Shown here one piece after another: positions 3,773 to 19,294 of a stretch of 64,000 nt of DNA (positions are counted from its first letter, which is position 1; every line of letters begins with the position of its first letter). The translations under genes were made by a program, and so were the position numbers. This DNA is from Frankia alni ACN14a (GTDB lineage Bacteria > Actinomycetota > Actinomycetes > Frankiales > Frankiaceae). The notes beneath the pieces are model-generated. The model saw nothing but the letters and a program-made list of their open reading frames with translations, ran no database searches and had not been told where the DNA came from. The stretch spans positions 5,946,962 to 6,010,961 of the forward strand of contig NC_008278.1 in the NCBI RefSeq assembly GCF_000058485.1, read 5' to 3'.

Positions 3773-6223
3773 TCAGTACAGCAGGCGCTGACCCGGGCCG
3801 GACCCGCCGGCGGCGAGCGCCCGCGCCGACATCCGGTACAGCGACGCCTGGGTGGCGTCGTTGCAGGTGTAGTACAGGTCGCCGCCGGGATCGGCGAGGA
3901 CGCCGAACAGCCGCTCGGTGTCGCCCACGCACGCCTGCCGCAGGACCGGCCGGACCGGTGCAGCGGTGCCGGTGCCCTCAGTGCCCGTGCCGCCGGTGTC
4001 GGGGCCGGTGCGGGTGCCGGGGCCGGTGCCGCCCGGCCGGTCGCCGACCTGCCAGATCGCCCCGTGCCGGGCGTCGGTGAACAGCACTCCCCCGCCGCCG
4101 CCCGGAGCCGGTGTGAGGCTGGTGATGGCGGCGTCGTCGAGGGTGCGGTCGACGACGGTCCTGATCGTTCCGTTCTCGACGACGTGGATGCGGGCGTGCC
4201 CGTCGGCGTACGACAGGACGAACACCCGTCCCGCGGCGTCGACCGCGACGCTGTAGGCGTTGGCCAGCGGCACCTCGGTCGCCCGGTCGGTGCCGTCGTC
4301 GTACCGGCGTTCGTGGGCCACCCGGTGGCCGCGGTCGGTGGCGGCGCCGTTGCCGGCGACGAGCTGCGCCGCCGTGGTGCGGTAGTCGCCCGTCCCGGCG
4401 GCGGGATCGATCTTCCAGACCTGGCCGGCGTAGCCGGTGGTGAAGTACAGCGCGCCGCCCGGGCTCACCGCGACGCTGGTCGGCGTGCCGATCTGCGCGC
4501 CGACGTTCTTCGGCCCGGCCGCGCCGCCCGCCGGGCAGATCGTCGCCGGCGCCACCGCCTTACCGCCGTCGGCCGCCCCCGCCAGCACCCGGTCCACCGT
4601 CTCCGTCGACGGCCGCCCGGCCACGGTCTCGACCCGCCACGGCTGCCCCGCCGGCCGGTAGACCCGGCGGACGACGCAGTTCCACTCGTCGGCGATGAAG
4701 ATCGACCCGTCACCACCGCCGGCGGCGATGCCGGCCGGGCGGCGCAGCGCGGCGACCGCGGCCGGTTCGTCCCGGGCCGGTCCCGGCTGGCCGCTGCGGT
4801 CGGCGCCGGCCCGGCCGACGACCGTGCTGGCCGCCCCCCGCGCGAACAGCGTCAGCGCGTGCTGGCTGGAGTCGGCGAGCAGGATGTCGCCACCGCCGTC
4901 CGCCGCCAGGCTGACCAGGCCACGCAGCGGCAGCGGCGCGCTCACCGGGTACGCCGGCGCGGCACTCGGCCGGACGGGCGCCGCCGCGGGCCCGCCGCCG
5001 CCGCCCGGCCCGACGCGCAGGACGCCCGTGGCGAGCAGCACGACGACCGCGAGAACGACCGCGATCAGGCCCGACGCGGACCAGCCGAGCTCCCCCACCC
5101 GCGCCCGCGCCCACGCCGACCCGCCCCGCTCCCGCAGCGACCGCAGGACCCCGGCGTACCGCGACCGGACCCCGCCGGCCTGCCCGCCACCGATCAGCCC
5201 GGTGGCGGGAAGCCACCCGTTGGTCGGGGGGCTGGTGGTCGGGGGGCTGGTGGTCGGGGGGCTGGTGGTCGGGGGGCTGGTGGTCGGGGGGCTGGCGTCG
5301 GCCGGCCGGTAACGCCGCGTCGGCGGGAGCGGGCCGCGGCTGCGGCGGCGCAGGTCCTCGTCGCCGCGGAAGCTGATCCCGGTGCCCGCCAGCCAGTCCG
5401 GTCCGAACGCGTACCGGGTGGCGTCGATCAGGTCCGCGGCGAAGGCGAGCGCACTCGGCTGGCGCTCCGCCGGATCCTTCGCGAGCGCCCGCAGGGCGAC
5501 GGCCGCCACCTCGGCAGGGATGCGCGGCAGCGGGTGCGGCACGGCCCGGCGGTGCCGCTCGGCCATGACGTGCGGCCGCGGGTCGGCGCCGAACGGCGGC
5601 GAGCCGGCGAGCAGCTCGTAGAGCACGGCGCCGAGGGCGTAGACGTCGGCGGCCATCCCGGCGGCGGCGAGGTCGAACTGCTCGGGCGCCAGGTACGGCG
5701 TCGAGCCGACCACGCTCGTCGGCGTGGCGGTGCCCGTCGACTCCAGCAGGCGCGCGATGCCGAAGTCGGTGAGCTTGGGCGCCCCGTCCGCGGCGAACAG
5801 GATGTTCGACGGCTTGATGTCGCGGTGCAGCAGGCCCTCGCGGTGCACCCGGTCGAGGGCGACGGCGACCGCCGCGACGGTGGCGCAGGCGGCCGGCGGC
5901 GCGAGCCCCGCCTGCGCGCGCCCGGCCAGCGTCCCGCCGGGCAGCAGCTCCATGACGATGAGGGCCATGTCCGCGTCGCGCACGTAGTCGAAGACCCGGA
6001 CGATGTGCGGATGGTCGAGGCTGGCGACGATCCGCGCCTCGGCGTCGACGCCGTCGGCGGGCGGCTCCGACGCGGGCGCGGGCACCGCCAGCACCTTGAC
6101 CGCCACGTCCCGGTCGAGCCGGCGATGCCGGGCGGCGAACACCCGGCCAAACCCGCCGCGGCCGAGCTCGGCGCCGATCTCGTAGTCCGGCAGCACCGCC
6201 TGGACGTGCCCCTGCACGATCAC
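3773..6223 (-). CDS. Receptor Ser/Thr protein kinase with NHL-type beta-propeller
   Basis: An 816-residue membrane kinase of the PknB/PknD type. The N-terminal kinase domain (about 12-275) has the glycine loop G-R-G-G-F-G at 21-26, the ATP lysine K43, the catalytic H-R-D at 133-135 and D-F-G at 153-155, so it should be active. A proline/threonine linker carries five copies of S-P-P-T-T (about 309-334). One membrane helix (about 380-400) is followed by an extracellular region with NHL-like repeats (for example G-D-I-L-L-A-D-S and S-I-F-I-A-D-E-W-N), probably a sensor propeller. The start is a GTG with a G-rich site upstream. The ligand is unknown. Confidence 0.92.
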   Translation of the reverse strand: MIVQGHVQAVLPDYEIGAELGRGGFGRVFAARHRRLDRDVAVKVLAVPAPASEPPADGVDAEARIVASLDHPHIVRVFDYVRDADMALIVMELLPGGTLAGRAQAGLAPPAACATVAAVAVALDRVHREGLLHRDIKPSNILFAADGAPKLTDFGIARLLESTGTATPTSVVGSTPYLAPEQFDLAAAGMAADVYALGAVLYELLAGSPPFGADPRPHVMAERHRRAVPHPLPRIPAEVAAVALRALAKDPAERQPSALAFAADLIDATRYAFGPDWLAGTGISFRGDEDLRRRSRGPLPPTRRYRPADASPPTTSPPTTSPPTTSPPTTSPPTNGWLPATGLIGGGQAGGVRSRYAGVLRSLRERGGSAWARARVGELGWSASGLIAVVLAVVVLLATGVLRVGPGGGGGPAAAPVRPSAAPAYPVSAPLPLRGLVSLAADGGGDILLADSSQHALTLFARGAASTVVGRAGADRSGQPGPARDEPAAVAALRRPAGIAAGGGDGSIFIADEWNCVVRRVYRPAGQPWRVETVAGRPSTETVDRVLAGAADGGKAVAPATICPAGGAAGPKNVGAQIGTPTSVAVSPGGALYFTTGYAGQVWKIDPAAGTGDYRTTAAQLVAGNGAATDRGHRVAHERRYDDGTDRATEVPLANAYSVAVDAAGRVFVLSYADGHARIHVVENGTIRTVVDRTLDDAAITSLTPAPGGGGGVLFTDARHGAIWQVGDRPGGTGPGTRTGPDTGGTGTEGTGTAAPVRPVLRQACVGDTERLFGVLADPGGDLYYTCNDATQASLYRMSARALAAGGSGPGQRLLY
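5222..5296. repeat. 15-bp tandem repeat, five copies, inside the kinase gene
   Basis: The unit GGTCGGGGGGCTGGT, read on the plus strand, repeats five times without interruption. It encodes the S-P-P-T-T repeat of the kinase linker on the minus strand, keeps frame and is likely length-variable between strains. Confidence 0.85.
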
Positions 6224-6301
6224 GCGCTACCCCGCGTCCGCCGCGTTCCCCGCCATTCCAGGCCCGCCACCAGGCCGGGATCATCTGTGAGCCGACTATA
6301 A

Positions 6302-6728
6302 CCGAGCACCTGCGACCGATCCGCCACCGAGCGGTCAGGGCGCCGGGGCGCGGACGACGACCGGGACAGGGGACAGCGAGCGCCCGTGGCCGCCCGGGAT
6401 TACCGCCGACGTCCTATCCACCGTCCCCGACGCGGGCCCGATGGGTTCTTCGAAACGGCAGTTCGGGGCGGGAGGACTCCCTCGCCGTTGTTCTCCGAGC
6501 AAACACCTCGGACTTCTCAGCCGGGAGGTCGGCGGGTTTCGGGGAACACCGCGTCGGTCGGATCGCGAGAGAAGGTGCCACGAAAAGCACGGGCCGCTCG
6601 ACGTCCGGCGGTGGGTGATCGGCTGTCGGCTGCGGGCGGCCCTGCGGGTACCGGAACCACCGGCCGTCACGGGTCTTGCGGCCCGGTGGCACAATCGGCG
6701 CCGAGTCCGAAACGGGGGTGAGGACGGC
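6302..6728. other. Divergent intergenic region before the TIR gene
   Basis: About 500 bases separate the kinase start from the TIR gene start. I see no gene in it: the frame reading into the TIR protein from 6441 is Arg-rich and lacks a ribosome binding site. A CACAAT at about 6692 is the only -10-like hexamer before the start. The region presumably holds the promoters of both divergent units. Confidence 0.4.
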
Positions 6729-8882
6729 GTGTCGGCCATGGGACGATGGGACTTCTTTCTTTCGTATGCGGCCGAAGATCGTCTGTGGGCCGAGTGGCTC
6801 GCCTGGCAACTGGAGTCCGCGCATTACCGGGTGCTCATCCGGGCCTGGGACTTCGTGCCGGGATCGAACTGGAGCCTGCATATCCAGCAGGGCGTCGTCG
6901 GCGCGGAACGCACCATCGTCGTGCTGTCTGCGGCGTATCTGCGCTCCCTGGACGACACCCCGGAGTGGCAGGCGGCGTTCGCCGCCGACCCATCCGGAGC
7001 CGGGCGGCGGCTCCTGCCTGTCCGGGTCGAGGACTGCGAGCTGCCCGGGTTACTGAAGCAGCTCGCCCCCATCGACCTGTTCGACCAGCCCGCCGATTCC
7101 GCCCGTGACACGCTGATCGCCCTGGTCCGGCACGCGATCGACGGACGCGCGAAGCCGAACATCGAACCAGCCTTCCCAGCCCAGGCGCAAACCCGGCTGG
7201 CCGAACCCGCCTTTCCCTCGGCCCCAACCGGCTGTGGCTCGCGGGCCGGAAGTCCGGCCACACCGCCGACCGGCGAAGCGGCGTCCGCATGGCGACGAAG
7301 AACGAACCAGGCCGCCGGCACTCCTCGCCCCCCAGTCGCCGCACCCGGTGGTCCGCCCCGGACCACGCAGCCACGGCCCGCGACGATGCTGGCGATCCGG
7401 CCGGGCAGCGGCAATGACTCAGCGCCTTCCCCTCCGAACGCGGCCCCAGTCTCTCCGCTCTCCGACCCTGCCGCCCGGGGCCCAGAGGAGGCCGCCCGCA
7501 ATCCGGGGCAGGCTGCCCGAGACGCACCGCGCGCGAACCCGCCGCAGAAGTCAGGTCGGCCGGCGGCGGCGCCCCGGCGCCGGCGCGGTGGATCCTGGGC
7601 GACGCTGCCCGCGGACCGGGTCATCCGACTGGCCGACACGGTCGAACCGGCGGTCCGCGCCGCGCTGGACCCGTTGCCCGCCGACGCGCCCGCCGTCCTC
7701 GGCTACCGCCCGGACGCACAGCCCTCGCTCGCCGCCTGCCAACGGGCGTTGCTCGCCGATCTGGAGTCGGTCGCGGTGGCGCTGTTCCCCGACTGGCTGC
7801 CAGGCGCCGAGGTCATCGAGTCGGCGGGCGGGGTGGGCGTGGCCGCGGCGCGGGCCCTCGCCAGCCGGAGCGCCGCCGCGCTGGACGTCTTCGGGCCGTA
7901 CCTGGCGGATCTGGCCGAGCGGTCCCTGCGCGGGGCGCCGACGGGCACGCGGTTCACCGTCGAGGTACGGGCCGCGGGCGTCGCGAAGGCCATCGCCGCC
8001 GGGTTCGGCCGTGAGCGGCTGGTACTGCTCGTCGATCCGGGGGCATCCGGGGGTCGGCTCCGCGACCGACGGACCGCCCTTGACGCACTGGCCTGGTTCG
8101 CCTATACGGCACGCGTCGGCGTGTGGTTGACCGGGCTCCCCGACGGCCCGGACGCCGACCGGGCCAGGACCGTGTCCTGCCCCGCGAGCGGGCGCCCGGC
8201 CCCGGCCGACGGGGCGTCCGAGCCGGCGGCGTCCCCGCTGCCGGGCGAGGTCGCCACACCGACCCCCGCGACCCTTAGCACGGCCGCGATCAACCAGATG
8301 GAGCCGACGGCAGCGACGCGCGAGGGGCGCATCCGGGCGCGGAGCGCCGGGGCGGAGCCGGCCCGGCCGCAGTCCACCTGGAGGGCGCCGGCCGCCCCAC
8401 CGTCGTCGACGACGATGGCACCGACGACGACGACACCGACGACGGCGACGGCGACGGCGACGGATGAGCCGGGTATGCCGGCGGGCGGCGATGACCGACC
8501 GAACCGAGTGGTGCTGCCCGCGGTCGTCGGCCGGCCGCATCCGGCGAGCCGGGCGGAGAAGCGGCTCGAAGGCGCGTTGCGCGCCAAGGAGTGGGCGCAC
8601 GGGCGGGCCTGGAACCAGCCCTACCGCTCCGGCCCCCTGACCGGGCTGCACTACCTCGACCTCATCTGGTCCGCCGAGCGGGTGGTCATCGAGGTCGACG
8701 GCCCGGAACACCGCGGGGTTGCGCACTACGAATCGGACCGGCGGCGGGACGCCGAACTCGTCCTCGACGGCTTCGCCGTCCTGCGGTTCACCAACGACCA
8801 GGTGCTCGACGACGTGGACGCCGTCGCGAGCCAGATCGAACGATGCGTCGAGGCGCGCCGAAAGACTCCGAAAGAGGCATAG
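6729..8882 (+). CDS. TIR-domain protein with C-terminal DUF559-type nuclease domain
   Basis: A 717-residue protein. TIR domain at about 5-135: D-F-F-L-S-Y-A-x-E-D, W-D-F-V-P-G-S-N-W, and the conserved E-W with Glu79, expected to be the catalytic glutamate of NAD-consuming TIRs. A long Pro/Ala-rich linker leads to a helical module of unknown family (about 300-480), then a second linker. The C-terminus (about 600-710) fits DUF559, a Vsr-like PD-(D/E)XK nuclease fold, with Asp644 and E-V-D-G at 655-658. The GTG at 6729 is chosen because GAGGA ends four bases before it; the ATG at 6738 is the alternative. It is the first gene of a three-gene unit with four bases before the next start. Effector role in defence is inferred. 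Confidence 0.85.
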   Translation: MSAMGRWDFFLSYAAEDRLWAEWLAWQLESAHYRVLIRAWDFVPGSNWSLHIQQGVVGAERTIVVLSAAYLRSLDDTPEWQAAFAADPSGAGRRLLPVRVEDCELPGLLKQLAPIDLFDQPADSARDTLIALVRHAIDGRAKPNIEPAFPAQAQTRLAEPAFPSAPTGCGSRAGSPATPPTGEAASAWRRRTNQAAGTPRPPVAAPGGPPRTTQPRPATMLAIRPGSGNDSAPSPPNAAPVSPLSDPAARGPEEAARNPGQAARDAPRANPPQKSGRPAAAPRRRRGGSWATLPADRVIRLADTVEPAVRAALDPLPADAPAVLGYRPDAQPSLAACQRALLADLESVAVALFPDWLPGAEVIESAGGVGVAAARALASRSAAALDVFGPYLADLAERSLRGAPTGTRFTVEVRAAGVAKAIAAGFGRERLVLLVDPGASGGRLRDRRTALDALAWFAYTARVGVWLTGLPDGPDADRARTVSCPASGRPAPADGASEPAASPLPGEVATPTPATLSTAAINQMEPTAATREGRIRARSAGAEPARPQSTWRAPAAPPSSTTMAPTTTTPTTATATATDEPGMPAGGDDRPNRVVLPAVVGRPHPASRAEKRLEGALRAKEWAHGRAWNQPYRSGPLTGLHYLDLIWSAERVVIEVDGPEHRGVAHYESDRRRDAELVLDGFAVLRFTNDQVLDDVDAVASQIERCVEARRKTPKEA

Positions 8883-8886
8883 GACC

Positions 8887-9783
8887 ATGACCCCCGCCAG
8901 CTCCCCGACCCCCACGAGCGACCCGGCCCGCCCGACCACGGCGCGCCGCACGGGATCAGCCAGCCGCGACCGCTCAGCTCTGTCTGCCCGGGAGGCGGCG
9001 ATCCTGCTGGCCCTGCTCGCCCAGGACCGGCCGATCTCCAACGAGGAGCTGCGCGAGCGGTTCCGCTTCACCCTGGTCGGCGCCGAGCGCCGCCGGCTCA
9101 ACGAGCTGCGCCTCGTCGAGAGCGGCAAGGTGCCCGGACACGGCAACTTCCTGTTCCATCAGGTCACCGACGCCGGCTGGGCACGGGGCTGCCAGGAGTT
9201 GGCGCCGCGTCCGATCGAGACGGGCACCCTGCCCGCCGGGGTCTTCTTCGCCGTCGCCGAGGGCCTGCACCGGTTCCTGGAACGGGAGCAGATCGCCATC
9301 GGCGAGTTGTTCCGCGCCGATCCGCCCGGCCCGGCCGATTCCCCGCCGGCGAGTGCCACGCCCCCGGCGCTGCCCGATCCGAGCACGGAACCGGCGGCGG
9401 GCACCGCGACGGCTCCATCGACTGCGGCGACGGCAACCGTGGACGCCGAGCCCGCGGACGAAGCCAGGCCAGCGGACAGCGGTCGGCCCGCGGACGACAT
9501 GGTCGACGAGGACGGTGGCGTGGCCATCGAGGCGGCTATCCGGGCGGCGTACGCCAGTCTCGCCGCCGGGCCGTACGACTGGGTGCGGCTGGCGAAGGTC
9601 CGCCCGCTTCTCGGCGGCACGGCCAAGGCGCAGGTCGACCGGGCGTTGCGGCGGATGGCGCGCCAGCCGGACGTGCGGGTCGTGCCGGACGAGGACCAGA
9701 AGTCGCTGAATGCCGCGGACCGCGCGGCGGCGGTCCGCATCGGCGAGCACGACAACCACCTGCTGCTGATCGGGCCGGCATGA
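8887..9783 (+). CDS. Protein with helix-turn-helix-like ends; middle gene of the TIR/HerA unit
   Basis: A 298-residue protein. The N-terminal part (about 25-85) reads as a winged helix: A-R-E-A-A-I-L-L-A-L-L followed by S-N-E-E-L-R-E-R-F and R-R-L-N-E-L-R-L-V-E. An Ala/Pro/Thr-rich linker (about 150-205) leads to a second small domain (about 215-298) that also looks winged-helix-like and ends V-R-I-G-E-H-D-N-H-L-L-L-I. The ATG at 8887 follows the upstream stop by four bases with AGAGG eight bases away. Its TGA overlaps the next ATG (ATGA), so the two are translationally coupled. No named family. It may be a DNA-binding or adaptor subunit for the ATPase, which is inference. Confidence 0.8.
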   Translation: MTPASSPTPTSDPARPTTARRTGSASRDRSALSAREAAILLALLAQDRPISNEELRERFRFTLVGAERRRLNELRLVESGKVPGHGNFLFHQVTDAGWARGCQELAPRPIETGTLPAGVFFAVAEGLHRFLEREQIAIGELFRADPPGPADSPPASATPPALPDPSTEPAAGTATAPSTAATATVDAEPADEARPADSGRPADDMVDEDGGVAIEAAIRAAYASLAAGPYDWVRLAKVRPLLGGTAKAQVDRALRRMARQPDVRVVPDEDQKSLNAADRAAAVRIGEHDNHLLLIGPA

Positions 9784-12700
9784 TCACCGAACTGGACGCC
9801 CTGGCCGCTGTCAGGCTGGACTGGGTGCACGCGCTGGAGGACGTCTGGCGCAGCTCCCCGGTCCATGTCGACGGCCTGCACACGCAGCCGCGGCGACGCA
9901 TCCTCGCCGCGCTGATGGAGGCCGACACGCGCAAGCCGCTCGGCGTCGTCGTGCAGGGCCAGGCCGGCGCGGGCAAGACGCACCTGCTTGGCTGGGTCCG
10001 TCAGCAGGTCCAGGAACTCGGCGGGTACTTCTTCCTGGTCGGGCACGCGAGCAGCGAGGCGTTCCATGCCAGCGTCGTCGGGTCGATGCTGTCCGACCTG
10101 TTCCGGCCCGTCGACGGGGAGACCCAGCTTCGACGGTTCCTGCGGTCGCTGTGCGAGCTGCTGCGCGTACCCGCGGAGCTGACCGCCTCCGTCGTGGGCG
10201 AGACGGCGTTGGAGCCGGGGCACCTGAAGGACCTCATCGTCGCGCTGGGCGACCACGACCGGGCGCTGGCCCGGGAATGTCAGCACACCCTGCGGGCCCT
10301 GACGCTGTACAACTCCGACGACTACGACGAGCTGACCGTTGGCGAGACCTATCTGCGATCGATGGACGAACAGGAGCCCGGCGAGCGGGCCCGCCGCGGC
10401 ATCCGGCCCGCCACCCGCCGCCCGGCCGACATCGTGCACGAGCTGTCCCGGCTGCTGGCCCTGACCGGGCCAAGCGTGATTGCGGTGGACCAGGTCGACA
10501 CGGTTGTGGCCGAGGCAGCGGTCCGTGACGACGATCCGGACGGGCGGCGCGGCGGGTCGGTGGCGTTCAACGTGCTCGCCGATGGGCTGCTCATGCTGCA
10601 CGAGCGGACCGAGCGGACGCTGTGCCTGCTGGCCTGCCTGCCGGCGAGCTGGATCCTGTTCCGGGAGAACGCGGTGACGTCCGTGCGCGACCGCTTCCAC
10701 GAGATCATGCCGCTCAATCGGCTTGAGGATCCCGCGATCACCGTCCGGATCATCGAGCGGCGGTTCCGGGAGGACTTCGACCGGATCGGCTTCACCCCGC
10801 CGTACCCGACCTGGCCGGTGAAGCGCGCGGCGTTCGACCGCGCTCCCCATTACACCCCGCGCGAGCTGCTACAACGCATCGACCGGCATCTGGAGACCTG
10901 CCTGTCCGCCGGCGTCGTCCGCGAGCTGGACGACTTCTCCGCGCAACCCGACGCGCACGCTGCCGCCCGGGCCGCCGAACCAGCCACGCCCGATGCGTCC
11001 GCAACCGCGGCCGGATCCGCCGGGACCGTCGGATCCGGTATGGCTGGGATCGCGGGGGAAGTGGCCGGCCAGGCCGAAGCCCAGCCGGCGGCGGCGTCCC
11101 AGGAGGGTGCGAGGCGGGTCGGTTCGACACCCGCGGCGGACGGGAACTCGACCGGGCCGGCCTCGACCGCGGGGACGCCGCCGCACCCGGCCGAACCGTC
11201 CCTGGCGGCGCTGGACGCGGTGTTCGCCGAACTGGTCGCAACCGTGCCGAGCGTGACGCCGGCCAATGAGGACATCGTCATGCCGGAGCTACTGAACGCG
11301 GGACTCACCGCCTGGATCACCGAGAACGGCGGGACGCGCCGCGGCTTCGGCCTCGAACCGAGCCCGAGCGCCCGGCCGCCGCTGCACGCCCGGCTGTCCC
11401 ACATCCTCAACGCCGAGACCGGCGAGCAGGCTCAGTGGTCGTTCCGGGCGATCACTTCCGGCCACGGCCGGGCGATCCTGCCCCGCATCACCAGCGCCTG
11501 CGTCATGTCCGGGATCGCCGCCGGCAACCCGCGCCGGCGGCTGTTCCTGCTGCGCAACACCGACTGGGGCCACGGCACGAAGACGCACGAGGCACTCGCC
11601 GCCTTCACCGAGGCGGGCGGCGTCGTGCACCGCCTCGACCGCGACGACCTGGCAACCTTCGCGGCGCTGCGGACCCTGTTCGACCGCCAGCATCCCCACC
11701 TGCGCGAATGGCTGACCGCGCGCCGCCCCGCCAGCGCAACGTCCCTGCTGCGCACGGCCTTGGGGGACGCCGCCGTCGAACCCCCCGGCGGCGCCGCGGA
11801 ACCCGAGGCCGGCGCCGCGCGGACAGTGGACGACAGGGCGGGTGCGGCCGGCGGCTGTCCGACACCGGCGAACGGCTCCCCCGACCGGGTCGCCGGCATC
11901 CCCGCCCCCACCAAGCGGACGAGCGCGCCGGGCACGCCGTCCGCGTTCGTACTCGGCACCTCGCTGGCTTCGGCGGAACCGGCCCGGCTCGATCTGGCCG
12001 TCCTGCGCCGGCACGTGGCGATCTTCGCCGGGTCGGGGTCGGGCAAGACCGTCCTGATCCGGCGGCTGATCGAGGAGGCGGCGCTGCGGGGCGTGTCCTC
12101 GATCGTGCTGGACCCGAACAACGACCTGGCCCGGCTGGGCGAGGCGTGGCCGAGTCCGCCGGCCGGCTGGCAGGGCGAGGACAAGAGCCTCGCCGACGAC
12201 TACCTCGCCGGCACCGACGTGGTGATCTGGACGCCACGGCGCGACGGCGGCCGGCCGGTGAGCTTCCAGCCGCTGCCCGACTTCGCCGGTCTGCGCGACG
12301 ACCCGGACGAGTTCGCCGCGGCGATCGACGCGGCCGTGGCCACTCTCGCGGCGCGGGCGGGCGTGACCGGCGCGACGTCCCGGGCCAGCATCGGCCGGGC
12401 GATCCTCACCGCCGCGCTGCGCCATTTCGCCCGAGGGAACCGGTCCGGTCTGACCGCGTTCGTCGAGCTGCTCGCGGACCTGCCCGACGGGGTGACCGAC
12501 CTCGACCCGGCGGACAAGCTCGCGAAGGGCCTGGCCCAGACACTGCGCGCGGCGATGGTGAATGATCCGCTGTTCGGCGGGCAGGGCGCGCCGGTCGATC
12601 CCGGGGCGCTGCTGCGCCCGGCCCCGGGACGCCGCGCCCGCGTCTCCGTGATCAGCCTGATCGGGCTGCCCCAGGACGAGCAGCGGCAGAGCTTCGTCAA

Positions 12701-13166
12701 CCAGCTCCAGCTCGCCCTGTTCGCCTGGGTGAAACGCAACCCCGCGGGCGAGCGTCCCCTCGGCGGGCTGTTCGTCATGGACGAGGCGCAGACGTTCGCC
12801 CCGTCCGGGCCGACCACCGCCTGCACCGCCAGCACGCTGGCGCTGGCCGCCCAGGCGCGCAAGTACGGCCTCGGGCTGGTGTTCGCGACCCAGGCGCCGA
12901 AGAACCTGCACAACGGCATCCCCGGCAACGCCACCACGCAGTTGTTCGGCCGGCTCAACAGCCCGACCCAGATCGACGCGGCCCGGCTGATGGCGCGCGC
13001 CAGCGGCGGCGACGCGGCGGACATCGGCCGGCTCGGCGTCGGCGAGTTCTACGCCACCAGCGAGGCGCTGACCTTCGAGAAGATCCGCACCCCGCTGTGC
13101 CTGACCCACCATCCCGCCTCCCCCCTGACCGACGAGGAGGTCATCGCCCGCGCCAGGGAGGACTAA
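9780..13166 (+). CDS. Dual ATPase: ORC/STAND-like N-terminus fused to HerA/FtsK-like C-terminus
   Basis: A 1128-residue protein with two P-loop modules. The first (about 1-395) has Walker A G-Q-A-G-A-G-K-T (Lys66) and Walker B V-I-A-V-D-Q (Asp237), with helices reminiscent of ORC/Cdc6 or STAND ATPases. After a low-complexity linker, a domain at about 498-665 (G-R-A-I-L-P-R-I, L-F-L-L-R-N-T-D-W-G-H) matches no family I can name. The last part (about 735-1128) is HerA/FtsK-like: Walker A G-S-G-S-G-K-T (Lys756), D-P-N-N-D-L, Walker B F-V-M-D-E-A-Q (Asp1001/Glu1002) and the sensor-like A-T-Q-A-P. HerA-type ATPases form hexameric DNA pumps and partner with effectors in several anti-phage systems. 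It starts inside the stop codon of the previous gene. Confidence 0.9.
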   Translation: MITELDALAAVRLDWVHALEDVWRSSPVHVDGLHTQPRRRILAALMEADTRKPLGVVVQGQAGAGKTHLLGWVRQQVQELGGYFFLVGHASSEAFHASVVGSMLSDLFRPVDGETQLRRFLRSLCELLRVPAELTASVVGETALEPGHLKDLIVALGDHDRALARECQHTLRALTLYNSDDYDELTVGETYLRSMDEQEPGERARRGIRPATRRPADIVHELSRLLALTGPSVIAVDQVDTVVAEAAVRDDDPDGRRGGSVAFNVLADGLLMLHERTERTLCLLACLPASWILFRENAVTSVRDRFHEIMPLNRLEDPAITVRIIERRFREDFDRIGFTPPYPTWPVKRAAFDRAPHYTPRELLQRIDRHLETCLSAGVVRELDDFSAQPDAHAAARAAEPATPDASATAAGSAGTVGSGMAGIAGEVAGQAEAQPAAASQEGARRVGSTPAADGNSTGPASTAGTPPHPAEPSLAALDAVFAELVATVPSVTPANEDIVMPELLNAGLTAWITENGGTRRGFGLEPSPSARPPLHARLSHILNAETGEQAQWSFRAITSGHGRAILPRITSACVMSGIAAGNPRRRLFLLRNTDWGHGTKTHEALAAFTEAGGVVHRLDRDDLATFAALRTLFDRQHPHLREWLTARRPASATSLLRTALGDAAVEPPGGAAEPEAGAARTVDDRAGAAGGCPTPANGSPDRVAGIPAPTKRTSAPGTPSAFVLGTSLASAEPARLDLAVLRRHVAIFAGSGSGKTVLIRRLIEEAALRGVSSIVLDPNNDLARLGEAWPSPPAGWQGEDKSLADDYLAGTDVVIWTPRRDGGRPVSFQPLPDFAGLRDDPDEFAAAIDAAVATLAARAGVTGATSRASIGRAILTAALRHFARGNRSGLTAFVELLADLPDGVTDLDPADKLAKGLAQTLRAAMVNDPLFGGQGAPVDPGALLRPAPGRRARVSVISLIGLPQDEQRQSFVNQLQLALFAWVKRNPAGERPLGGLFVMDEAQTFAPSGPTTACTASTLALAAQARKYGLGLVFATQAPKNLHNGIPGNATTQLFGRLNSPTQIDAARLMARASGGDAADIGRLGVGEFYATSEALTFEKIRTPLCLTHHPASPLTDEEVIARARED

Positions 13167-14329: not shown

Positions 14330-15652
14330 GTGGGGGACTCCGCGGTAACACCAGGATTGGCGGCAAGCAAGTTCGGCCTGTTCGACGGGTTCGAGGCGTA
14401 CCGCACGCCGTCGGTCGAGGACTACCGGCGGGTGCTGACGAGTGGCATGGTCGTGCCGGACACGAACGTCCTGCTCAACCTGTATCGCTATCACCCGGAC
14501 GCGCGCGACAACCTGTTGGATGTGCTCACCGGGCTCGGCGAACGGGTGTGGGCACCGCATCAGGTGGTCGCGGAGTTCTGGACCCAGCGCACCAACGTGC
14601 TGCGCGACCCGCGGGGCACGACGGCGGCCCAGAGCGAGCTGCTGAAGCTGCGCGACCAGGCTGACAAGGTGATACGCACCTGGGTTAACCGGCTCTCCCT
14701 CGACCTGGTGGAGGCGACCGGCCTACACAGGGCCCTCGCTGCCGGGTTCGACCATGTGTCGGAGCGGATCGCGGCCACCCATGACCGCGAGATGGCACGA
14801 TATTCCACCGACTCGAACCTCGACCCCGTCGTGAAGCGACTGGCGACCATTCTCGAGCGGCGGGTCGGTCCCGCTCTGCCGCCCGACGAGCACCGCGAGG
14901 CGGTCGACGAGGGTCTGCGCAGGGTCGAGCAGCAGCGCCCGCCCGGTTACAAGGACGGCACGAAGAAGGGTGCCGCTCCGGCTGGCGACTACGTGCTCTG
15001 GAAGCAGATCCAGGTGGAGGCCGGCGCGCGACACTGCGCCGTCCTCTTCGTCACCGGAGACGTCAAGGAGGACTGGTGGCGTCTCGACCAGGGCCTCCCC
15101 GTGGGCCCGCGGCCCGAACTCGTCCGGGAGCTGCTCGACACCGCCGGCTGCGCCCTGTACATGGTCCGGCCCGACACGCTGCTCCGGCTGGCCGGGGAGA
15201 TGCTCAGCGTCGAGGTGCCCGCCGCCGCGCTGGCCGACGTCGGTCGCGTCCAGCAACTGCAGCAGGAGCGGAACGATCGGGACGACGAGCCCGAGGACCA
15301 GGAGACCGGCTGGACCGCGGTGGCGCTCGACGCGGTCCTCGGCCGGCTGCGCCAGGAGGCGGCGGTGCAGGCGCGGGCGATCGAGCGGGCCGCCGAGTCC
15401 GACGGTTTCATCAGCCGCGAGGAGGTGTACCGGATCGGCTACGGGGCGGACCGCAGCCTGCGCGGGTTCACCCGTCCCGTGCGCCGCATCGTCGCCTACT
15501 TCCAGGGCCGCGGGCGCATCCCGCTCGACGCCGAGCCGCTGCTGGACGCCGTCTACGACGACCAGTCCGGCCAGGCCATCGGCTTCCAGCTCCCCGTCTC
15601 CGTCACCGCGCTGCTCGGCTCCCCCGCCGACCCGGCGGTCGACGAGGACTGA
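14330..15652 (+). CDS. PIN-like domain protein (DUF4935 type)
   Basis: A 440-residue protein. The N-terminal PIN-like domain has V-V-P-D-T-N-V-L-L with Asp44 in the usual metal-binding place, then a W-A-P-H-Q-V-x-x-E-F-W segment and, later, L-F-V-T-G-D-V-K-E-D-W-W, the family's acidic end. The C-terminus (about 370-430) has a small helical domain (S-R-E-E-V-Y-R-I-G-Y, R-R-I-V-A-Y-F-Q). Long DUF4935-type PIN proteins are predicted RNases found in defence-rich regions. The GTG start is weakly supported by an AAGG about 19 bases upstream. It lies just after the ParA remnants and before a Nudix gene. Confidence 0.85.
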   Translation: MGDSAVTPGLAASKFGLFDGFEAYRTPSVEDYRRVLTSGMVVPDTNVLLNLYRYHPDARDNLLDVLTGLGERVWAPHQVVAEFWTQRTNVLRDPRGTTAAQSELLKLRDQADKVIRTWVNRLSLDLVEATGLHRALAAGFDHVSERIAATHDREMARYSTDSNLDPVVKRLATILERRVGPALPPDEHREAVDEGLRRVEQQRPPGYKDGTKKGAAPAGDYVLWKQIQVEAGARHCAVLFVTGDVKEDWWRLDQGLPVGPRPELVRELLDTAGCALYMVRPDTLLRLAGEMLSVEVPAAALADVGRVQQLQQERNDRDDEPEDQETGWTAVALDAVLGRLRQEAAVQARAIERAAESDGFISREEVYRIGYGADRSLRGFTRPVRRIVAYFQGRGRIPLDAEPLLDAVYDDQSGQAIGFQLPVSVTALLGSPADPAVDED

Positions 15653-17950: not shown

Positions 17951-19294
17951 GTGCCCATCTGGCACATCCGTCCCTACGAGACCGTCGACTACGCGGCCAC
18001 CGTGCGGCTGCTCGAGGAGGTGCGCAGCACCCCGGGCGGACCGCCGATCAACCTGACCGACACCGTGCTGGCGCTGCGGCACGAGCCGCCCGACACCGAG
18101 TCCCCCGTCGTGGTCGCCGTCGCGGGCGAGCACATCGTGGGGGCCGCGATCGGGCGCAAGGAGGGTGGCGCGGGCCGGGTCCTCACGGTCGCGATCGCGC
18201 CGGCCTGGCGTCACCACGGCATCGGCTCCGGCCTGCTGCAGAGCGTGGAGAACCTGCTCCTCCACGCCGGCTGCCGGCGGATCACCACCCTGATCACCCC
18301 CGGCCAGTCCGGGGAGGAGGCGTTCCTCAACCGCGGCTTCAGCGCCACCGGGCAGGTGCTCTACGACAAGCAGATCCCGCTGCGCCCGGCGGACGTGTCG
18401 ACCGTCGAACGCTGGGGTGGGGCGCTGCTGAGCACGTCCGAGTGGTCGAACCTCGCGGGCATGGAGGACGAGCGCAAGCTCATCGAGCAGCGGCTGCTGC
18501 TGCCGGTGCGCGAGCGAGAGCTGGCCGAGGCCTACGGCGTGGTCATCCCCACGGCGATGCTGTTGTTCGGGCCGCCGGGAACCGGTAAGACGTCGTTCGC
18601 CCGCGCGATCGCCGCCCGGCTGGAGTGGCCGTTCGTGGAGCTGCTGCCGTCGCGGCTGGCCTCGGGGGCGGCCGGGCTCGCCGCCGAGCTGCGTTCGGCG
18701 ATCGACGACCTGATGGGCGTCGAACGCGTCGTCGTGTTCATCGACGAGGTCGACGAGATCGCCCAGTCCCGCGAGACCCGGCCGGAGAACCAGTCGGTCG
18801 TCAACGAGCTGCTCAAGGCGATCCCGCTGTTCCGCGGGGTGCAGGGACGGCTGCTGATCTGCGCGACGAACGCGGTGTCGGCGCTGGACCCGGCGTTCGT
18901 CCGGCCCGGCCGGTTCGACCTGGTACTCCCCGTCGGGCCGCCGGACGCCAGCGGACGCCGCGTGCTGCTGGCGGGCCTGCTGGAGCGGGTCGCCAACAAG
19001 GAGGACATCGACCTGGACGCGGTGGTGGCCGCGACCGACCTGTTCACCCCCGCGGACCTCTCGGCGGTCGTGCAGCGCTCGGCCGCGGCGGCCTTCCACC
19101 GGGCCGCGGACGGCACCTGGCTGCATGGCAAGCCCGGCTCGGACGCGGCCGGTCCCGACGGCGGCGAGAACCCCGCGGCGACGCCGCTGACCACCGCCGA
19201 CCTGCTCGACGCGGCCCGACAGGCCCGTCCGACGATCAGCCTGACCGAGCTCGACCGCTTCCGCCGGGACGCGGAGGCCTTCACCCGCATCTGA
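17951..19294 (+). CDS. GNAT acetyltransferase fused to AAA+ ATPase
   Basis: A 447-residue fusion. Residues 1-145 read as a GNAT acetyltransferase: L-T-V-A-I-A-P-A-W-R-H-H-G-I-G-S, the acetyl-CoA loop, then N-R-G-F. Residues about 165-400 form an AAA+ module: Walker A G-P-P-G-T-G-K-T near 207-214, Walker B V-V-F-I-D-E-V-D near 260, A-T-N sensor and R-P-G-R-F-D arginine motif, closest to FtsH/katanin-like members. The GTG start has AAGGAG eight bases upstream. A flavoprotein gene follows 150 bases later on the same strand. The AAA part could remodel a partner that the GNAT part acetylates; this is inference. Confidence 0.88.
   Translation: MPIWHIRPYETVDYAATVRLLEEVRSTPGGPPINLTDTVLALRHEPPDTESPVVVAVAGEHIVGAAIGRKEGGAGRVLTVAIAPAWRHHGIGSGLLQSVENLLLHAGCRRITTLITPGQSGEEAFLNRGFSATGQVLYDKQIPLRPADVSTVERWGGALLSTSEWSNLAGMEDERKLIEQRLLLPVRERELAEAYGVVIPTAMLLFGPPGTGKTSFARAIAARLEWPFVELLPSRLASGAAGLAAELRSAIDDLMGVERVVVFIDEVDEIAQSRETRPENQSVVNELLKAIPLFRGVQGRLLICATNAVSALDPAFVRPGRFDLVLPVGPPDASGRRVLLAGLLERVANKEDIDLDAVVAATDLFTPADLSAVVQRSAAAAFHRAADGTWLHGKPGSDAAGPDGGENPAATPLTTADLLDAARQARPTISLTELDRFRRDAEAFTRI

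Follow-up and report, generated by a model that had tools for sequence, protein, structure and literature searches.

A conserved actinobacterial protein family with a GNAT acetyltransferase domain and a single AAA ATPase domain in one chain

The gene analyzed here occupies positions 17951..19294 (+) of the window, by which we mean the whole stretch of 64,000 nucleotides from Frankia alni ACN14a; the genome it comes from consists of one contig of 7.5 Mb. Inspection of the sequence showed an AAGGAG just 5′ of the GTG start codon. The gene encodes 447 amino acids; its counterparts in relatives, like it, consist of one ORF. The first-pass annotation had described a GNAT acetyl-CoA loop and a full AAA motif set in one chain of 447 residues, and this description was correct: the ORF is exact and both halves were matched by Pfam models above the cut-offs. 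The GNAT domain covers approximately residues 1–145 (17951..18385, +) and was recognized by three Pfam models as well as by a structure model and fold search. Acetyltransf_1 (PF00583) matched residues 49–126 with an E-value of 1.8e-9 and 38.3 bits (cut-off 20.7), and the GNAT models PF13508 and PF13673 also scored above their curated cut-offs. A linker of residues 146–162 (18386..18436, +) leads to the AAA ATPase domain with its lid and C-terminal helix (residues 163–447; 18437..19291, +), which was assigned with PF00004, PF17862, phmmer and VIA. PF00004 matched residues 203–328 (E 3.1e-26, above the curated cut-off) as the single AAA match of the protein, so that the GNAT domain is N-terminal to one AAA domain. 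The lid model PF17862 was barely above its cut-off and Vps4_C was a weak match below it. The C-terminal helix (residues 431–445; 19241..19285, +) was delimited by DSSP on the model and aligns with the tail of Cdc48 D2. No NCBIfam model spans the whole fusion, and the Cdc48, PAN and FtsH models on the AAA half remained far below their cut-offs. None of the 25 Pfam families found on the protein at E ≤ 0.1 was, by its model name, a domain of the RNA cytidine acetyltransferase TmcA.

For the family alignment, 74 sequences were drawn from 75 loci and the window (L118, whose family ORF was not called, left out; L042, called on the wrong strand, entered by direct translation; L055 counted twice); some genomes enter this set twice via two collections, and gene calling was crude. 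Reduction at 85% identity left 35 sequences. The acetyl-CoA pyrophosphate loop of the window protein, R87-HHGI-G92 (18209..18226, +), follows the pattern R/Q-x-x-G-x-G/A, which is kept in 66 of the 74 relatives. The remaining eight comprise one fragment, two partly altered sequences (L108 and L110) and five members of one clade. Nearly fixed GNAT positions are G129 (35/35) and E100 (34/35). Residue 138 is Phe in 16 and Tyr in 12 of the 35 sequences, and a role of this residue as general acid is a guess by position only. In the linker, G156 is invariant (35/35). The ATPase motifs are conserved throughout: Walker A GPPGTGKT (residues 207–214; 18569..18592, +) is invariant in 35/35 at residues 207–213 (GPPGTGK), and the same holds true for D265 and E266 of Walker B VVFIDE (residues 261–266; 18731..18748, +), the sensor-1 Asn N307 (18869..18871, +) and both arginines of the arginine-finger pair R318-PG-R321 (18902..18913, +). 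Further positions invariant in all 35 sequences are specific to the family and include W226, F228, E230, P233, N285, E286, K289, F437 and R446.

The same two-domain order, which the first-pass annotation had proposed to look for elsewhere, was found in many other genomes. A full-length fusion is present in all 13 Frankia genomes searched. Within the order, 18 of 35 genomes carry it, all belonging to two genera, Frankia and a second one taken as Protofrankia-type; the 35-genome search gave no fusion in the other five genera. With the GNAT half alone as query, the fusion was found in 39 of 296 genomes of a class sample, and in a phylum sample in 29 of 396 genomes (E ≤ 1e-35). In the latter, 27 of the 29 matches start at query residue 12 or earlier and two at residue 51; for one of these two, the ORF is cut off at the beginning of its contig. 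AAA domains of the fusion's subfamily were never found on their own, and a free GNAT half was found only once, as a frame-shifted copy in genome G190. In this second copy (L142, about 7615-8879, −), GNAT and AAA are in different frames with the shift within the linker; we rejected it as a two-gene form and read it as decayed or mis-sequenced. Relatives share the same order within a single chain, which rules out a spurious ORF as well as a misassembly. The presence of GNAT and AAA in one chain is near certain.

Among 72,556 plasmid records, the GNAT half matched 21, all actinobacterial and two of them predicted to be conjugative. A scan of genome contigs with patterns derived from one sequence gave 30 loci, again actinobacterial. 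The family is old, conserved and widespread among actinobacteria, and it is likely limited to this phylum. An origin from phages or viruses was rejected, as none of 105 matching phage records covers 80% of the query. Of the 32 loci on viral contigs, 31 are matches to the AAA half, some few of which start at residues 136–159. One viral contig (L151, 1872-2879) gave a weak match of 26% to query residues 15–336, possibly another protein with an N-domain in front of an AAA domain.

Structure models were calculated for the whole chain and, as AAA chains fill the matches listed for the whole-chain model, for the GNAT part alone. AlphaFold2 on the first 160 residues with a 20-row alignment gave a mean pLDDT of 66.6, with values below 50 at residues 115–142 and 148–160. 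This model resembles GNAT structures, several of which contain acetyl-CoA; the best E-value in Foldseek was 8.6e-7, and VIA gave Z scores of up to 14.2 (rmsd 3.1 Å over 111 residues). RimI, NatC, aminoglycoside and other acetyltransferases scored about equally (VIA Z 12–14), so that the substrate class, protein or small molecule, cannot be read from the fold. The whole-chain model had a mean pLDDT of 73 and a pTM of 0.56, which makes the relative placement of the domains unreliable. Its residues ~150–447 resemble p97 D2, Vps4, FIGL-1 and spastin about equally (VIA Z 16–17, rmsd 4.2–5.3 Å), with Z 17.2 and rmsd 4.2 Å over 258 residues for p97 D2 against the AAA part.

The first-pass annotation had envisaged a remodelling ATPase that delivers protein acetylation, and in this wording the claim was not supported, for two reasons that concern the pore of the ring and the history of one clade. 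The pore-loop-1 region of the window protein (residues 233–248, PSRLASGAAGLAAELR; 18647..18694, +) lacks the aromatic-hydrophobic-glycine motif, and 70 of the 74 family sequences are devoid of aromatic residues (F, W or Y) in the segment 233–248. Instead, the alignment shows a short stretch rich in Ala, Gly and Ser. Of the four exceptions, three carry EYG, and in the fourth an F is located past the loop. The control sequences in this alignment all show FVG; they are FtsH and the proteasome ATPase from the genome of the window, and a second FtsH from a genus-mate. It is this aromatic-hydrophobic-glycine motif, located in pore loop 1, that defines unfoldases; p97 D1, Rix7 D1 and NSF D2 do not have it (PMC6355894). 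Judged from these sequences, the ATPase of the fusion family is probably not a threading unfoldase. The same source states that the rings of Rix7 and p97 D1 still contact substrate despite their non-aromatic pore loops (PMC6355894), and threading is therefore weakened rather than excluded.

One clade of nine genomes lacks the acetyl-CoA loop throughout (9/9), with Walker A, Walker B and both arginines intact in every genome. On the tree of the AAA half, the three representatives of this clade cluster as a single branch inside the family (100/100), and L110, whose loop is partly altered, adjoins this branch (97/94). The refuting case named in the first-pass annotation, homologues whose N-terminal part lacks the GNAT fold, was not encountered: the N-terminal domain is kept, although this clade has lost the acetyl-CoA motif. 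Estimates of dN/dS by the Nei-Gojobori method, to be read with the reservation that the genes are GC-rich, the pairs not independent and some dS values near saturation, were 0.05–0.28 for GNAT and 0.09–0.22 for AAA in Frankia (21 pairs), 0.05–0.09 and 0.04–0.11 in Protofrankia (10 pairs), 0.02–0.06 (one value saturated) and 0.03–0.07 in the Acidimicrobiia type (6 pairs), and 0.33–0.73 and 0.07–0.15 in the loop-less clade (10 pairs). Thus, in clades with the acetyl-CoA loop, the two halves are under similar constraint. The ratio of protein differences in GNAT to those in AAA, for which L066, L068, L108 and L110 were left out, was 2.2–4.0 in the loop-less clade, whereas pairs that keep the loop had medians of 0.87–1.51. 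In the loop-less clade, GNAT thus evolves fast next to an AAA half that stays constrained; this could reflect adaptation to a new ligand and not loss. Retention of the AAA half after loss of the acetyl-CoA site speaks for the ATPase as the core of the protein and for the GNAT domain as an input to it. The loop-less clade represents a natural experiment: its comparison with Frankia separates the job of the ring from what the acetyltransferase adds.

The gene neighborhood was analyzed by gene clustering in 75 loci and the window and by Pfam searches with 191 neighbors of 34 diverse loci. A recurring partner was not found, as each Pfam family was present in at most three of these 191 genes. In the window, a flavoprotein gene (PF02441; 19448..20002, +) begins 153 nt downstream of the fusion gene and had been suggested as the first candidate for a partner. 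A full-length match to it adjoins the fusion gene in 11 loci and a partial match in one, all from Frankia; the remaining 63 of the 75 loci have no match at this place. Because this adjacency is confined to Frankia, the flavoprotein is a poor candidate; it was rejected as a partner and is judged to lie outside the system. Upstream of the fusion gene, the window contains genes for a protein with TIR_2 and DUF559 (6441-8882, +) and for an AAA_22/HerA-like double ATPase (9780-13166, +; PADLOC mad8 model, E 2.8e-23), with an unassigned ORF between them (8719-9783, +). The region 6441-13166 (+) looks like a TIR-HerA-type defense locus. Just downstream of it lies a gene for a PIN_8 protein (14330-15652, +; E 1.5e-70), possibly an effector nuclease. 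In the loci L070 and L120, which are apart on the tree and one of which is a Kitasatospora plasmid, the fusion gene lies near hydrogenase-maturation genes (HypC/D/E/F). On the Rhodococcus plasmid pDK2 (L073, 7677-11851) it is located between Hsp20 genes and a pair of Dyp-peroxidase and encapsulin genes. Two of the 191 neighbor genes encode SulP transporters. These co-occurrences are too sparse to point to a partner. One contig (L055) carries two copies of the fusion gene, at 6001-7266 and 9358-10623, each following the same short-chain-dehydrogenase-like gene; either a tandem duplication or a repeat from assembly could account for this.

As a working model, whose probability we put somewhat short of even, we propose that the protein is an ATP-switched AAA ring of the Cdc48-D2/Vps4 type, a stand-alone two-domain protein with a GNAT N-domain that depends on acetyl-CoA. 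Six chains would form the ring, a hexamer being assumed from the fold, and ATP binding and hydrolysis would switch it from one shape to another without threading of a substrate. The GNAT domains, six in number, would be placed where Cdc48 has its N-domains. Their contact with a client protein would depend on acetyl-CoA and would serve either to acetylate the client or to sense acetyl-CoA. The core function would thus lie with the ATPase, to which the GNAT domain would be an input or targeting module. With a little more reserve, we consider it possible that the ring gave up threading and couples ATP-driven changes to acetyl-CoA, as an ATP-timed acetyltransferase or as a carbon-status switch on a client, and that one lineage dropped the acetyl-CoA site and kept the ring. 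If one protein reads both ATP and acetyl-CoA, energy and carbon status would be tied to a switch in soil actinobacteria, including the nitrogen-fixing Frankia.

Several other functions were weighed against this working model. The AAA ring might unfold or pull a client and thereby expose a lysine or the N-terminus for acetylation by the fused GNAT domain. Both sets of active-site residues in one chain, the similar constraint on the two halves in the Frankia, Protofrankia and Acidimicrobiia-type clades and the resemblance of the GNAT model to RimI and N-terminal acetyltransferases, among others, fit this idea. Given the missing aromatic pore loop in 70 of 74 sequences, the nine-genome clade that keeps the ATPase without the acetyl-CoA loop and the equally good scores of aminoglycoside acetyltransferases, with which the fold does not tell protein from small-molecule substrates, we regard it as unlikely. 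Slightly less doubtful, yet still improbable on balance, is a GNAT domain that binds acetyl-CoA without transferring the acetyl group, so that its occupancy would set the state of the ATPase and link carbon status to the ring. Residue 138 is not invariantly Tyr, and one clade does without the acetyl-CoA loop; moreover, in acetyltransferases known from bacteria, GNAT occurs joined to signal domains (PMC11254643), an arrangement that would be reversed here. The present data, however, fit catalysis as well as binding, and residue 138 was picked by position.

The opposite assignment, which gives the enzymatic work to the GNAT domain and leaves the AAA domain as a mere scaffold for oligomerization, appears quite improbable. 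The absent gripping loop would suit a structural ring, and NSF D2 also lacks the motif (PMC6355894), but a scaffold would not need the full set of Walker A, Walker B, sensor and arginine residues that is invariant in 35/35 sequences, and the AAA half outlives the acetyl-CoA motif of the GNAT half. We consider it highly improbable that the protein is an anti-phage defense ATPase related to IetA. In IetAS defense, IetA pairs with a protease partner. PADLOC IetA models matched the AAA half (E 9.1e-29), as did the NCBIfam IteA model (E 1.8e-23), the 21 plasmid records indicate a mobile distribution, and TIR, HerA-like and PIN_8 genes lie upstream of the fusion gene in the window. These matches, however, cover the AAA domain only, the NCBIfam match is far under its cut-off (83 versus 510 bits) and is outscored by generic AAA models, and among the 191 neighbor genes of 34 loci no recurrent defense partner was found. 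The neighbor genes scanned in the window, a part of its genes, included no protease family. Unlike most defense genes, the fusion is kept in every Frankia genome searched.

AAA rings gain jobs via a domain fused in front, and the system closest to the AAA domain of the fusion by sequence is Cdc48/VAT (phmmer best E 2e-60). The AAA fold is similar to that of p97 D2, and both Cdc48 and the fusion carry an N-domain before the ring. The fold of the Cdc48 N-domain differs from GNAT. Cdc48, p97 and the actinobacterial Cpa have two AAA domains, whereas the fusion has one, with GNAT replacing the N-domain and without the aromatic pore loop. With the meiotic-clade AAA proteins (Vps4, spastin, FIGL-1), the fusion shares the presumed single AAA ring and, as far as the model goes, a C-terminal helix, which in this clade packs on the AAA domain; it differs from them by lacking the pore-loop-1 aromatics, by being bacterial and by the absence of the MIT-type N-domain that is a feature of this clade. 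Proteasome-activating ATPases have a C-terminal HbYX docking motif; the fusion chain ends with F-T-R-I, and proteasome-type NCBIfam models were far below their cut-off. A term search of the Cpa paper gave neither Frankia nor acetyltransferases (PMC6017811).

Members of the family, e.g., WP_007297117.1 and WP_331742139.1, are labeled "bifunctional GNAT family N-acetyltransferase/ATP-binding protein" in RefSeq, which is a name only, with no function attached. In the open-licence PMC literature, as judged from titles and abstracts, we found no study of a GNAT–AAA fusion and no AAA ring with an acetyltransferase in front, in agreement with the first-pass statement that no characterized enzyme has this order. 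The family is thus real, conserved and already named, but apparently unstudied. As in the fusion, the GNAT domain of bacterial protein acetyltransferases of types I–V is joined to a larger partner domain. In the review section on bacterial GNAT types, these partners are NDP-forming acyl-CoA ligase-like domains or domains binding cAMP, NADP or amino acids, and AAA is not listed (PMC11254643). With an AAA partner, which is neither in this list nor the case of a GNAT domain alone, the fusion falls outside types I–V, and it is also unlike the ACT-GNAT proteins of actinobacteria (PMC6434083). The closest precedent for a protein that works by ATP-coupled acetylation is the RNA cytidine acetyltransferase TmcA/NAT10, which contains a Walker-type ATPase and an N-acetyltransferase in one chain (PMC6770127). 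In TmcA/NAT10 the ATPase is a helicase domain preceding the acetyltransferase, whereas the fusion combines an AAA domain with the acetyltransferase in the reverse order.
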